A stretch of DNA of 39,202 nt from a virus: the IMG/VR virus record IMGVR_UViG_3300008110_000144, positions 1 through 39,202 of that record. One strand, 5' to 3'. How positions within the stretch are numbered: position 1 is the first letter of the stretch; each line of letters begins with the position of its first letter. The notes beneath the pieces were generated by a model. The model did no database searches, had not been told where the DNA came from, and was given only the letters and a program-made list of their open reading frames with translations. Shown in pieces: positions 2,783-9,371 of this stretch. A program made the position numbers and the translations under genes.

Positions 2783-2838
2783 CAATTACTATAATTTACT
2801 GCACCATTTTATTATTGGGTATTATTTCAACCCTATGA
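2776..2838 (+). CDS. possible 20-aa hydrophobic micropeptide
   Basis: A short frame encoding MLTITIIYCTILLLGIISTL, almost entirely hydrophobic and long enough for one membrane pass. It starts inside the stop region of the previous gene after AAAGGGGTTAAT and ends with a TGA overlapping the ATG of the receiver-domain gene (ATGA). It could be a real micropeptide or merely a coupling frame that carries ribosomes into the receiver gene. Confidence 0.4.
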   Translation: MLTITIIYCTILLLGIISTL

Positions 2839-3146
2839 ACATCTTAATAATTGAAGATTGCCGAATCATGACCTTTCTATGGAAACTACAAGCCAAGGAA
2901 GCGGGACATATAACAACTTGTTGCGAATACAAGCATGAGGCACTCGAATTATTAAGAAGCAATGTTTATGACTTAATTATACTCGATAATAATTTAAGCG
3001 GTGAATTAGGACTAGAAATTGCGAAAGAAATAAAAGACATTACTAAAACTAAAATAATATTATCCAGTGCCGATGATGACCTTGTCGGCAATGAATTTAT
3101 CGATGATGTTATTGGTAAAAAACAACTTAATTTTAAAGATTTATAA
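2835..3146 (+). CDS. stand-alone response-regulator receiver (CheY-like) protein
   Basis: 103 aa, slightly shorter than a typical 120-aa receiver domain. The acidic pair is E7-D8 (ILIIEDCR), the predicted phospho-acceptor is D51 (DLIILDNNLSG), the hydroxyl position is S77/S78 (KIILSSAD), and a Lys occurs at 95/96 (GKKQL) where the conserved Lys is expected. There is no output domain and no sensor kinase in the window. It may accept phosphate from a host kinase, act as a decoy for host signalling, or bind a partner without phosphorylation. The start overlaps the stop of the 20-aa frame. Fold assignment is strong; role is unknown. Confidence 0.85.
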   Translation: MNILIIEDCRIMTFLWKLQAKEAGHITTCCEYKHEALELLRSNVYDLIILDNNLSGELGLEIAKEIKDITKTKIILSSADDDLVGNEFIDDVIGKKQLNFKDL

Positions 3147-3163
3147 AATAATTAAAATAATTC

Positions 3164-3192
3164 TTGACTATTAATCGAGGCTTGTTTATATT
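3164..3192 (+). promoter_or_regulatory. sigma70-like promoter for structured RNA locus 1
   Basis: TTGACT at 3164-3169, a 17-nt spacer, and TATATT at 3187-3192. Predicted transcription start is near 3199, between the receiver gene and the structured non-coding stretch. Confidence 0.8.
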
Positions 3193-3198
3193 GATTGG

Positions 3199-3460
3199 AA
3201 CACTACTAAAAAAACTAACAAAGTCAAGCTTTAAGACTTAATTTAAAATAGAAGCAAAATACGATTTATTTATAAGTCGGAGCGGGTAAGCGTCTGTATC
3301 GGAAGATAAGAATTAATAAACCTTACTAGTTTTTTAATTTACCAGCCGATGGACTTCGGCATGAGGGAATATAGAGGGCATAACAAAGCGGAATTGTGTA
3401 TAGCGGTTTCGTGAGGTGCAATAAAGCCGAGAGGCATGCGGGGCTTTGTTAATAAATCGT
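3199..3460 (+). ncRNA. structured RNA locus 1, domain I
   Basis: Non-coding and visibly richer in G and C than its flanks. A closing helix ACGATTTATT (3261-3270) pairs with AATAAATCGT (3451-3460). Inside it are AACAAAGC/GCTTTGTT (3382-3389/3443-3450), a GNRA hairpin TATC-GGAA-GATA (3297-3308), GCCGA/TCGGC (3345-3349/3356-3360) and GCC-GAGA-GGC (3426-3435). No credible gene is seen here. The RNA family is unknown to me; large phage ornate RNAs such as GOLLD and ROOL should be tested by covariance model. The true 3' end may lie beyond the tRNA-like elements that follow. Confidence 0.75.
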
Positions 3461-3618
3461 GAATATTTAAATGGCTAGTGTTGTGAGCCTTAGTTGGACA
3501 AGGCGGCGACCATAAAGATATATGGGTTCAAGTCCCATTTAATAGTTTAATGGCAAAACATCTTTCCACCGCAATTTGCAGGTTCGAGTCCTGCCAACAC
3601 TAGCTTTTTAAATATTTA
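3460..3618 (+). ncRNA. double tRNA-like element closed by a 24-position stem
   Basis: Bases 3460-3483 pair with 3595-3618 over 24 positions with one mismatch (3472/3606). Inside, in order: a D-arm-like hairpin with GG in the loop (GCCT/AGGC, 3487-3504), a T-arm with canonical loop (ATGGG-TTCAAGT-CCCAT, 3522-3538), a second D-arm-like hairpin (GTTT/AAAC, 3545-3559) and a second T-arm (GCAGG-TTCGAGT-CCTGC, 3578-3594). Neither unit has its own anticodon arm. Instead the two linkers pair with each other: AAAGAT (3514-3519) with ATCTTT (3560-3565), and GCG (3506-3508) with CGC (3570-3572). It therefore reads as two tRNA elbows joined through one anticodon-like stem. Not a conventional tRNA. Confidence 0.7.
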
Positions 3619-3688
3619 GCTGGCACGGTTAAAGATGGTGCGAAAATACTTTATTTACGGGCTTGGTCGCTCCTCTGAATAAAGGGTA

Positions 3689-3786
3689 GATTGTGTAGAG
3701 GAAGACTAGCCGTAGAAATACGCGTTATCAACGGTAGAAAGGGTTCTAGTGCCGTCTTAGTGTGGGTTCAAGTCCCGCCACAATTG
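3689..3786 (+). ncRNA. tRNA-like element with acceptor and T-arm but no normal D/anticodon arms
   Basis: GATTGTG (3689-3695) pairs with CACAATT (3779-3785) as a 7-bp acceptor stem with one G-U pair. It stacks on a canonical T-arm GTGGG-TTCAAGT-CCCGC (3762-3778). In place of D and anticodon arms there is a GNRA hairpin CGTA-GAAA-TACG (3711-3722) and a long hairpin ACGGTAGAA/TTCTA-GTG-CCGT (3731-3755). No CCA is encoded. It resembles the acceptor/T-arm domain of tmRNA in outline but lacks its conserved features. Bases 3619-3688 hold further possible pairing (CTTTATT with AATAAAG). Confidence 0.6.
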
Positions 3787-3814
3787 CAGTTAGCCTTCTT
3801 TAAAAAGACAATAT

Positions 3815-3826
3815 TATTAACTTAAA
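3815..3826 (+). promoter_or_regulatory. TATTAACTTAAA leader motif
   Basis: Ends 10 nt before the ATG at 3837; no Shine-Dalgarno sequence is present. One of eight similar sites. Confidence 0.6.
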
Positions 3827-3836
3827 TTTAAAAACT

Positions 3837-5092: not shown

Positions 5093-5412
5093 ACAACGAA
5101 GCACAAACCCAGCACTTTATTATTCTCCAAAAAATCAAAGAACTTGATTTTGTTGAAGGTAAAACATTAACTGAGATTGCTAAAAAGCTTGGGACGAATA
5201 GAGCGATAATTTGGTCTATTAAAACTAAGATTGAAGCTCATCAAGATTGTATCGAGGGTAATTTTAAAAAGCTTATAACAACTTATAAAAAATCACATTA
5301 CAAAAAGATTAATCTAAAAAAATATAAAGATTATTATGTTTTTTCTGAGCCTAAGCTTTATGTAATTTGTTATAAGAAATCGGATAAATTTAAAGAACTA
5401 ATGGGGATATAA
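5089..5412 (+). CDS. helix-turn-helix DNA-binding protein, 107 aa
   Basis: Residues about 23-46 form a plausible HTH: LTEIAKKLGTNRAIIWSIKT, where the EIAKKLGTNRA core matches a recognition-helix layout. The remainder is basic (Lys-rich) with a YVFSEPKLYVICYK strand-like segment. It could regulate the promoter just downstream (5431) or bind elsewhere in the control regions. It overlaps the preceding gene by 4 nt. Confidence 0.65.
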   Translation: MNNEAQTQHFIILQKIKELDFVEGKTLTEIAKKLGTNRAIIWSIKTKIEAHQDCIEGNFKKLITTYKKSHYKKINLKKYKDYYVFSEPKLYVICYKKSDKFKELMGI

Positions 5413-5506: not shown

Positions 5507-6355
5507 ATGAAAAATGAAACTAAAGGATTATCAGTAATTCAAAAAATCGAAACAACATTATTAGATAAATTGCCTCAATTTTATAATGGCGATGCTAATA
5601 AATATATTAAATCAGTATTGCTTGAAATTGCTAAAAGCAAATCAGACTCAAAAAAAGATTTATCAGTTTGCACCCCGCTTTCAATTTTAACGGCAGTAAA
5701 ACAAGCGGTTGATTTAGGACTTGAAATTGATTCAAGGCAACATTGCCACTTAATCAAATATGGAGATAATGCTCAATTGCAAATTGGTTATCGTGGTTTT
5801 ATTTATGCTATTAAAAGAGCCTATCCCGATGCAAATATTGTTGTAAATCTTGTAAAAGAAGGCGATATATTTTCAATTAAAAAAGATGGCGATATTGAAG
5901 AGTATAACCACACAATAAAAGACCCGTTCGCAGGACAAGATAAAATCATTGGCGGTTATTGCTATATTTCTTTTACTCTTGGAAATAGAAAAATTGCTAA
6001 AGTTGAAACTGTATCAAAAGAAGAAATAAATAGAATCAAAGGAAGTGCTAAACAAGATTTTATTTGGAAAGCTTGGTTTGAAGAGAAAGCGAAGGTAGCA
6101 ATAATTAGAAGAGGTTGCAAAGTAATATTTGCGGGCTTAAGCAATGATTTATTAGATAATCTTGTAAATAAAGATAATGAGAATTTTGATTTAAACCAAG
6201 AAACTAAATCAGAACCAAAAATTATTAACGATTTACCAAAAGTTGATTTTGAAGCGGAAGACGAAGTTGTTGAAAAACAAGAAACGGCTTTGACTCAAGA
6301 AGAAATTGACGCTATCAAAGCAGAAGAATTTAGAGTTGCTAAGGAGGGTGAATAA
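5507..6355 (+). CDS. recT: RecT family single-strand DNA annealing protein
   Basis: 282 aa, normal for RecT. The family core is visible: CTPLSILTAVKQAVDLGLEI (about 60-79), then HCHLIKYGDNAQLQIGYRGF, then the SKEEINRIKGSAKQDFIWKA region and KVAIIRRGCKVI. It anneals complementary single strands during phage recombination and genome concatemer processing. It is paired with the exonuclease that begins at its stop codon (TAATG overlap). The C-terminal tail is acidic. It has its own promoter upstream. Confidence 0.93.
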   Translation: MKNETKGLSVIQKIETTLLDKLPQFYNGDANKYIKSVLLEIAKSKSDSKKDLSVCTPLSILTAVKQAVDLGLEIDSRQHCHLIKYGDNAQLQIGYRGFIYAIKRAYPDANIVVNLVKEGDIFSIKKDGDIEEYNHTIKDPFAGQDKIIGGYCYISFTLGNRKIAKVETVSKEEINRIKGSAKQDFIWKAWFEEKAKVAIIRRGCKVIFAGLSNDLLDNLVNKDNENFDLNQETKSEPKIINDLPKVDFEAEDEVVEKQETALTQEEIDAIKAEEFRVAKEGE

Positions 6356-7377
6356 TGAAAGATAGATTTCAAATTATCGGTGCCAGTGAAATTGCTGGCA
6401 TCATAAAAGAATATTCGGCTAACTTATTTGCTGAAAATTTAATTAGCGAAACAATAAACGAGAAATTGCAGGCAATGCCTAATTATCTTGAAACAAGATA
6501 TTCGCTAGGTAAAAAGTTAATGCTTACTAGAGAGCAATTTAAGCGATTTAACGAGTTTACGAGCAACAAAGCTATGTCTCGTGGCAAAGAAATGGAGGAG
6601 GATGTAAAAGTTGATTATACCCGTCAACATTTAGAATTAAAAGTTATTGAAGACGAAACTCAAGCAGTCAAAGATAAAATAATCAAAGGTTGCAAATTCC
6701 CGTTTAGAGCAACAATTGATTATATTTTAAGCGATAACAAAATTTTAGAATGTAAAACAACTGATATAAACCAATGGTTTAAAATTGAAAATGACGGCTT
6801 GCCTTTTAATTATTATATTCAAGCTCAAGCTCAATTATGGCTTCATGAAAAAGAAATTTGCGAAGTTCATATTGCGGGAGTTAATACAGTTAATAAAAAT
6901 CATCAAATATTAGAATCCAAAACTTTTAAGGTTGGCTTAGACCCAAAAATGGTTAGAGCAATTACCGCTAGTTTAGTTTGGTTTAGTGCTGAATTTGAAA
7001 AAGGCACTTTGTTTAACAAAGACGAAGCGGATAAAACTAAAAAAGATAAGCAAATTGATGAGTTTTTAGCACTTGAGAAAGGAACTCTTGAATTGCCACT
7101 TGAAAGCGATTTGTCGGCTAAATTAGCTCGATTAAAAGAGCTTGACGAGGCAAAGAAAGAATACGAAAAACTTGATAAAGAAATTCGAGAGCAAATCAAA
7201 CAATCAATGCAAGATTATAAATTTGCTAGGTTTAAATCTAATCAATTTGAGATTGAGGCTAAATATAGCAATGAAAGCTATCATGATGAGGCAAGTATTA
7301 ATGAAGCAATTGAGAAAGCTAAATCAATGAGTGTCGGCGATGTGAAAGCGGGCAAGAAATTAACAATTAAATATTAA
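6355..7377 (+). CDS. YqaJ-type recombination exonuclease
   Basis: 340 aa. A PD-(D/E)xK nuclease core is readable: RGKEMEE (about 76-82), D122 in ATIDYIL, E132-x-K134 in ILECKTT, and the QAQAQLWLHEK motif (156-165). These are the expected acid, ExK and Gln positions of YqaJ/lambda-exonuclease-like proteins. It resects DNA ends 5' to 3' to feed the RecT annealase. The C-terminal third is a Lys/Glu coiled coil. AAGGAGGGTGA precedes the start, the best Shine-Dalgarno sequence in this arc. Confidence 0.88.
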   Translation: MKDRFQIIGASEIAGIIKEYSANLFAENLISETINEKLQAMPNYLETRYSLGKKLMLTREQFKRFNEFTSNKAMSRGKEMEEDVKVDYTRQHLELKVIEDETQAVKDKIIKGCKFPFRATIDYILSDNKILECKTTDINQWFKIENDGLPFNYYIQAQAQLWLHEKEICEVHIAGVNTVNKNHQILESKTFKVGLDPKMVRAITASLVWFSAEFEKGTLFNKDEADKTKKDKQIDEFLALEKGTLELPLESDLSAKLARLKELDEAKKEYEKLDKEIREQIKQSMQDYKFARFKSNQFEIEAKYSNESYHDEASINEAIEKAKSMSVGDVKAGKKLTIKY

Positions 7378-9105: not shown

Positions 9106-9371
9106 TGGAAAAATTAAAATATTATTTAAAAGAAATAAAGGAAAATGCAAAATTTCTTTACAATGAAGAAACTTATATAAAAGAATTTAGCAATTGTAGC
9201 ACCTATAGTCTGGTTGCTCTTGCACCCTTGGTTTGTGCAACAATTGCGGTAATCACGCCATTAACAATTATTGCATTTGCTTTTCATGGTTGGCAATTAA
9301 TGTTTGTTTGTTGTCTATTTTGGGCTTTGGTGTTATGTTATATATTAGCAATACTTTTTCGCAATTTATAG
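9105..9371 (+). CDS. membrane protein, 88 aa, two spans
   Basis: A charged N-terminal 35 residues is followed by two hydrophobic segments (LVALAPLVCATIAVITPL and LMFVCCLFWALVLCYILAIL) separated by a short turn with FHGW. The hairpin topology resembles small holins, but no family is recognised. GTAGGGG precedes the start, and the TAATG overlap couples it to the preceding gene. Confidence 0.7.
   Translation: MEKLKYYLKEIKENAKFLYNEETYIKEFSNCSTYSLVALAPLVCATIAVITPLTIIAFAFHGWQLMFVCCLFWALVLCYILAILFRNL

Follow-up and report, generated by a model that had tools for sequence, protein, structure and literature searches.

The window, that is, the whole stretch of 39,202 nucleotides that was analysed, is a 39.2 kb virus record (IMG/VR IMGVR_UViG_3300008110_000144) encoding a DnaB-like helicase, RecT-like and RecE-like proteins, a terminase and tail proteins. 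The element under study, at positions 3460-3618, lies within a 690-base noncoding stretch (3147-3836); directly upstream of the RNA region, at 2835-3146, a lone response-regulator receiver domain is encoded, and a similar gene is found upstream in L003, the closest relative (95% identical in DnaB; the viral contigs used for comparison are designated by L numbers). The canonical T-loop motif GGTTCRANTCC occurs three times in the 39 kb compared to 0.03 expected, all three copies being located in the noncoding stretch. The features of this region are the following.

3164-3192, plus strand: TTGACT-17-TATATT, a sigma-70-like promoter near the start of the noncoding region, from a consensus scan (10 of 12 matches).
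3460-3483, plus strand: 5' strand of the outer helix, pairing with 3595-3618 over 24 positions with one T-T mismatch and covarying in the cassette family described below; its last seven bases, AGTGTTG, form the 5' strand of the acceptor.
3487-3504, plus strand: D1 arm GCCTTAGTTGGACAAGGC, pair probability 0.71-0.73, with a D stem that covaries in the cassette family.
3505-3521, plus strand: linker 1, 17 nt, containing GCG and AAAGAT, weakly paired to linker 2 in the MFE structure.
3522-3538, plus strand: T2 arm ATGGGTTCAAGTCCCAT of the inner elbow, pair probability 0.76-0.88, a submatch to the tmRNA T-arm.
3539-3542, plus strand: TTAA, four bases where an inner acceptor stem would be, in size and place like TTCG in L116 and TTAG in L130, L158 and L164.
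3543-3559, plus strand: TA and the D2 arm GTTTAATGGCAAAAC of the inner elbow (D2 at 3545-3559), with the A, GG and A positions of the D-loop kept.
3560-3577, plus strand: linker 2, 18 nt, containing ATCTTT and CGC.
3578-3594, plus strand: T1 arm GCAGGTTCGAGTCCTGC of the outer elbow, pair probability 0.86-0.87, with the letters of the T-arm of the L003 tRNA-Asn.
3595-3618, plus strand: 3' strand that closes the outer helix, reading CAACACT and then AGCTTTTTAAATATTTA, without CCA.
3619-3809, plus strand: adjoining structured module, separate from the double element, opening with a hairpin GGCAC..GGTGC and closing with GCAGTTAGCCTTCTTTAAAAAGAC.
3689-3695/3779-3785, plus strand: acceptor GATTGTG/CACAATT of the adjoining module, for which L003 has GATTGTA/TACAATT instead.
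3762-3778, plus strand: third T-arm, within the adjoining module.

The two D-arm/T-arm pairs nested in a 24-position stem with a single mismatch, as described in the first-pass annotation, were thus all recovered at these coordinates. The predicted fold is far more stable than those of shuffled sequences (-48.5 compared to -32.3 kcal/mol, z -4.3), and the outer stem (pair probability 0.55-1.0), D1, T1 and T2 are well determined in it. The pairing is weak for D2 (0.09 in isolation), for AAAGAT/ATCTTT (0.17-0.24) and for GCG/CGC (0.4). Regarding the idea that both elbows could form, the canonical T- and D-loop letters are indeed kept, but the D2 stem is weak, and formation of the inner elbow in the window can be proposed by analogy only. 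Taken alone, the complementarity of the window linkers does not exceed chance (p 0.095 against shuffles; p 0.50 in a constrained fold), nor does the inner half made of T2, the four bases and D2. As to transcription, promoter-like sites number five in the noncoding region compared to 3.0 +/- 1.4 in shuffled sequences, which is weak, and L003 and L022 carry TTGACA and a TATA-like hexamer at the position of the window promoter.

The element does not correspond to a standard tRNA gene or to an Rfam family. ARAGORN called neither a tRNA nor a tmRNA in the window, Rfam at its cut-offs gave no match to the element, and the Rfam tRNA model (RF00005) reached 24.6 bits over D2-T1 only, for a cut-off of 29. 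At lax thresholds, the relevant Rfam matches in the window and its relatives were tRNA and tmRNA fragments only. That neither half possesses an anticodon arm is borne out by the lack of any cloverleaf above the Rfam cut-off and by the linkers of 17 and 18 nt, which are too short for one. Compared to a canonical tRNA, the window shares D- and T-arms with canonical loops and an acceptor-like helix, but this helix is three times too long, and there is neither a CCA nor a free acceptor end: CAACACT is followed by AGCTTT, which pairs with the 5' flank. Likewise, tmRNA (RF00023) has tRNA-like ends and a large insert at the anticodon place, whereas the window matches this model in the T-arm alone, at about 10 bits. 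ROOL and GOLLD, which are large phage RNAs of unknown function found near or around tRNA arrays (PMC12286853), are comparable as phage RNAs in a tRNA-array setting, but the window region matches neither Rfam model. The pseudo-tRNA tRNA-Other of Bacillus cereus (PMC3399842) also appears, as far as the cited account describes it, as a tRNA-like RNA with no function in translation, but with a single tRNA fold. Finally, a blastn search of GenBank phages with this region returned short chance matches only.

The outer half, comprising the 24-position stem, D1 and T1, is better documented. DNA-pattern scans place it in a family, defined in this analysis, of at least 16 anticodon-less tRNA-like cassettes from related phages, none of the 16 being called as a tRNA by ARAGORN. 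All follow the same plan: a closing helix of 23-26 positions, TG, a D-arm with a 3-bp D stem, a variable domain of about 50-190 nt, a T-arm with a G-C beside its 7-nt loop, and the closing strand. In the 15 cassettes that were aligned, 99.3% of the cells are paired in 19 core pairs, 15 of which show double changes, a result matched by none of 2000 shuffles; covariation is strong in the acceptor, D and T stems. A scan free of family letters retrieved the same 16 cassettes together with two ordinary tRNAs, and nothing in shuffled DNA. The possibility that the AT-rich outer stem is a mere repeated palindromic spacer (AAATATTT) was ruled out, since L056 and L059 replace the palindromic flank by the non-palindromic AAGTTTTTTT/AAAAAAACTT, which indicates that the long outer helix is real.

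The apical domain of these cassettes differs in every subfamily and is generally no more stable than shuffles by MFE, so that stability gives no support there. In L003, the slot holds only a stub hairpin between unchanged flanks, from which it follows that the cassette interior is, judging by sequence, exchanged as a unit, and that the inner half is dispensable; the slot of L066 likewise holds a short hairpin only. In the corresponding region, relatives with 85-95% identity in DnaB carry real tRNA genes. Other anticodon-less tRNA-like units, some of them with CCA, were seen in L001 (about 9188-9258), L005 (near 4420), L013 (near 3790) and L081 (near 2206), where the anticodon arm gives way to a stem with a GAAA or GACG cap.

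Arrays of structured RNA modules without Rfam match are present at 3619-3809 of the window and in L015, L018, L019, L022, L055, L057 and others, one array module having a hairpin around GGGTAAAGATGA at its start and CAGTTAGCCTTCTGTAAAAAGGC at its end. A 21-mer of the latter motif is found exactly in at least 34 viral contigs, and the end motif of the module lying 3' of the element occurs in three contigs from two Rickettsiales MAGs and in 4 of 263 Rickettsiales genomes. On these grounds, it seems that phages carry the RNAs and that their hosts are likely Rickettsiales, the phages bearing the cassettes being probably Rickettsiales phages. Near 6103-6773, L068 has the 21-base end motif, and the adjacent open frames give the impression of reading through TGA, suggesting a recoded host. 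Besides, short genes made almost entirely of simple repeats (GGAAACGGACACGG, GGAGCAGGAGCG) lie 3' of the RNA arrays in L015 (about 1020-1310) and L022 (about 5100-5240).

An exact 20-mer from the inner part of the window had no match in the viral contigs, and no close homologue of the inner half and linker stem was found. The inner arrangement was followed by its signature, in which a D-arm comes only 3-15 bases after a T-arm, too short a distance for two acceptors. This signature is present in at least 119 viral contigs; among the matches listed, it forms 77 sequence clusters, 55 of them outside ARAGORN tRNAs. In these 55 clusters, the bases 5' of the T-arm pair better with their cognates 3' of the D-arm than with those of other sites (-12.67 compared to -9.80 kcal/mol, p<1/5000), whereas the effect is missing at 22 control sites located within ordinary tRNAs (p 0.41). 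The 55 clusters are circularly permuted tRNA-like folds with a closed acceptor, often capped by UUCG or GAAA loops, and many of them fit the description of YrlA, a tRNA-mimicking bacterial Y RNA whose module links a T-arm to a D-arm via a closed stub (PMC8394870). The YrlA model (RF02553) gave E-values as low as 4e-13 on the permuted modules, all scores being under its cut-off of 69, and a Ro60 (TROVE) gene is present in 12 of 34 module records, mostly near the module.

Several further occurrences deserve mention. YrlA-like phage modules below the Rfam cut-off accompany Ro60 (TROVE) genes in L092, L103, L104, L105, L140, L141, L147, L152, L168, L184 and L202, and in Gordonia phage Sixama (88124-91068) one YrlA-like module, and no double, lies close to a Ro-like gene. 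In L120 (7315-7418), two overlapping T-arm/closed stub/D-arm units stand in tandem like chained permuted tRNA mimics, a marginal case, while the contig of L096 (3148-3722) brings together a ROOL RNA, a large array of tRNAs, a group I intron and, at about 507, a permuted tRNA-like module.

The complete double, in the order acceptor, D1, linker 1, T2, short link, D2, linker 2, T1, acceptor, is present in the window and in at least six other sequence clusters. A structural scan gave nine matches (the window, L116, L131, L132, L149, L191, L177, L182 and L180) and none in shuffled DNA; L177 and L182 were rejected as tandem ordinary tRNAs, and L180 is marginal. L158/L164/L192 and L130 are further doubles, the clearest cases being these together with L149, L131, L132, L191 and L116. 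As an RNA form, the double recurs in phages, as its occurrence and covariation in contigs other than the window show. The contigs of L131, L149 and L191 carry terminase, portal or integrase genes, and the doubles of L116 and L164 sit among sugar-nucleotide genes of viral contigs. A blast search of the doubles against GenBank phages matched mostly single tRNAs.

The linkers of the doubles form two stacked stems, one per tRNA anticodon stem, with an internal loop between them, and the unaided fold of L149 is exactly the double structure. Linker pairing, which was not a criterion for detecting doubles, is stronger for cognate than for swapped linkers (-12.44 compared to -7.63, p 0.0004; p 0.0025 without the window), those of L130 and L191 being no better than their own shuffles. 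In the four GC-rich doubles (A7), 93.2% of the cells are paired and 16 of 41 pairs show double changes, six in the outer acceptor and five in the two linker stems, with none of 500 shuffles or slid versions coming near; the structure was taken from L149 with n=4 sequences and is biased towards it, but the size of the effect makes this bias unlikely as the whole explanation. The AT-rich trio (A6) has four double changes, two of them in linkers. Compensatory changes, proposed at the outset as a check on linkers and outer stem, are thus found in doubles elsewhere and in the family of the outer half, but not for the inner half of the window, which lacks a homologue. The same holds for the initial picture of two tRNAs fused head to head at their anticodons: the architecture recurs in unrelated phage contigs with covarying linkers and outer acceptor, but the linker stem and D2 of the window, taken alone, do not exceed chance. 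The case for the window linker stem therefore comes from analogous doubles elsewhere rather than from the window sequence itself, and the window, sole representative of its sequence type among the matches listed, is by analogy a probable, sequence-isolated member of this RNA form.

In the light of these data, we favour by a modest degree of confidence a noncoding RNA in which one tRNA-like fold carries on its anticodon stem a second one that is permuted and closed, and which is probably an elbow mimic docking or sequestering a host protein. The likeliest alternative would be that, in the window, the outer cassette alone is functional, for instance as a stable scaffold or processing element, T2-D2 being recent tRNA debris in the variable apical slot with the second elbow unformed. 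This is rather unlikely in our view, although the subfamily variation of the apical domain, the hairpin-only slots of L003 and L066, the weak and homologue-free inner pairing, and the resemblance of D2 to the tRNA-Trp D-arm and of T1 to the tRNA-Asn of relatives all point that way. Against it, a T-arm, a link of the same four-nucleotide length and a D-arm recur inside the complete doubles L116, L130, L158 and L164, and every canonical T- and D-loop letter is kept in the window.

Two decayed tandem tRNA pseudogenes, joined by deletion of acceptor and anticodon arms, would account for the linear order of tandem tRNAs with shortened middles, for linkers too short for anticodon arms and for the tRNA genes of relatives in the corresponding region. 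However, the 5' acceptor of the first unit pairs with the 3' acceptor of the second over 24 positions with family covariation, which a simple deletion would not yield, the T-loops are intact and other doubles covary, making this origin quite improbable. Still less credible is a pre-tRNA whose inner fold would be an intron, excised at the anticodon to leave a working tRNA: the inner fold does sit exactly at the anticodon position, and the strand between the anticodon stems of L132, L131 and L149 is about 7 nt long, but their would-be loops (TGTCAGA in L132), as read from the sequences, lack U33 at the right place, and the window has no such loop, no CCA and no free acceptor end; an intron in a tRNA was ruled out, no proper anticodon loop being present. 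A true YrlA-type Y RNA acting with Ro60 (Rsr), suggested by the permuted T-arm/closed stub/D-arm module and by the single modules adjoining Ro60 genes in many phages, is largely refuted, as no TROVE domain was found in the window, in 15 records of doubles and relatives or in 55 sampled Rickettsiales genomes, and as the window fails RF02553 (11.3 bits, E 0.7, at T1 only) and has no closed acceptor stem, its TTAA link being unpaired.

The relationship with YrlA (RF02553; crystal structure cited in PMC8394870) nevertheless qualifies the first-pass statement that no described RNA has such a layout, since the inner half has a precedent in the YrlA module, though the window fails the YrlA model. Both share a permuted module of T-arm, short closed acceptor and D-arm, entered by a stem at the place of the anticodon stem, and the inner halves of L131, L132, L149 and L191 match RF02553 at E 3e-5 to 2.5e-8. 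In contrast, this place has no acceptor stem in the window or in the AT-rich doubles, which do not match the model, are without a Ro60 gene, and bear a second tRNA-like fold where YrlA has its Ro-binding stem. A Ro tether is thus unlikely for the doubles and the window, Ro60 being absent from them and from the sampled Rickettsiales genomes. The double is apparently a real and undescribed kind of tRNA mimic.

According to the favoured reading of an elbow mimic, the outer fold (acceptor helix, D1, T1) would be one member of an exchangeable cassette family of related phages, and the inner fold (T2, four-base link, D2), resembling the tRNA-like module of bacterial Y RNAs, would sit on its anticodon stem. 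Such an RNA could play no part in translation, since it has no anticodon, no CCA and no free end, the inner end being closed and the outer one paired. The 24-position closing helix, which leaves no free 3' end, would also fit poorly with a standard substrate of RNase P or of aminoacylation. Lacking anticodon, CCA and Ro60, the window most likely encodes a non-translational elbow mimic or decoy, which could be made as a stable RNA during infection and dock or sequester a host reader of the D/T elbow. Putative partners are RNase P, PNPase, an enzyme that modifies tRNAs or a nuclease that cleaves them. In YrlA, TruB and DusA modify the equivalent module, which also binds PNPase (PMC8394870) and for which competitive inhibition of an anticodon nuclease has been suggested (PMC7790460).

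Taken together, a bivalent elbow mimic or decoy would be the preferred reading. The doubles are located within tRNA arrays and on contigs that bear packaging genes, settings presumed to house phage tools against tRNA-targeting defence. At a more general level, the chances seem about even that several unrelated phage lineages encode conjoined tRNAs, an architecture distinct from tRNA, tmRNA and Y RNA that has arisen or been kept repeatedly and probably serves as a bivalent elbow decoy or tether against host factors. If the fold is real, phage tRNA mimicry includes double mimics that are overlooked by tRNA finders and Rfam, having no ARAGORN call and scoring below cut-offs. The doubles would then tie the Y RNA module to a setting without Ro60, and would offer a natural two-elbow RNA for asking which host proteins read the tRNA elbow in infection.
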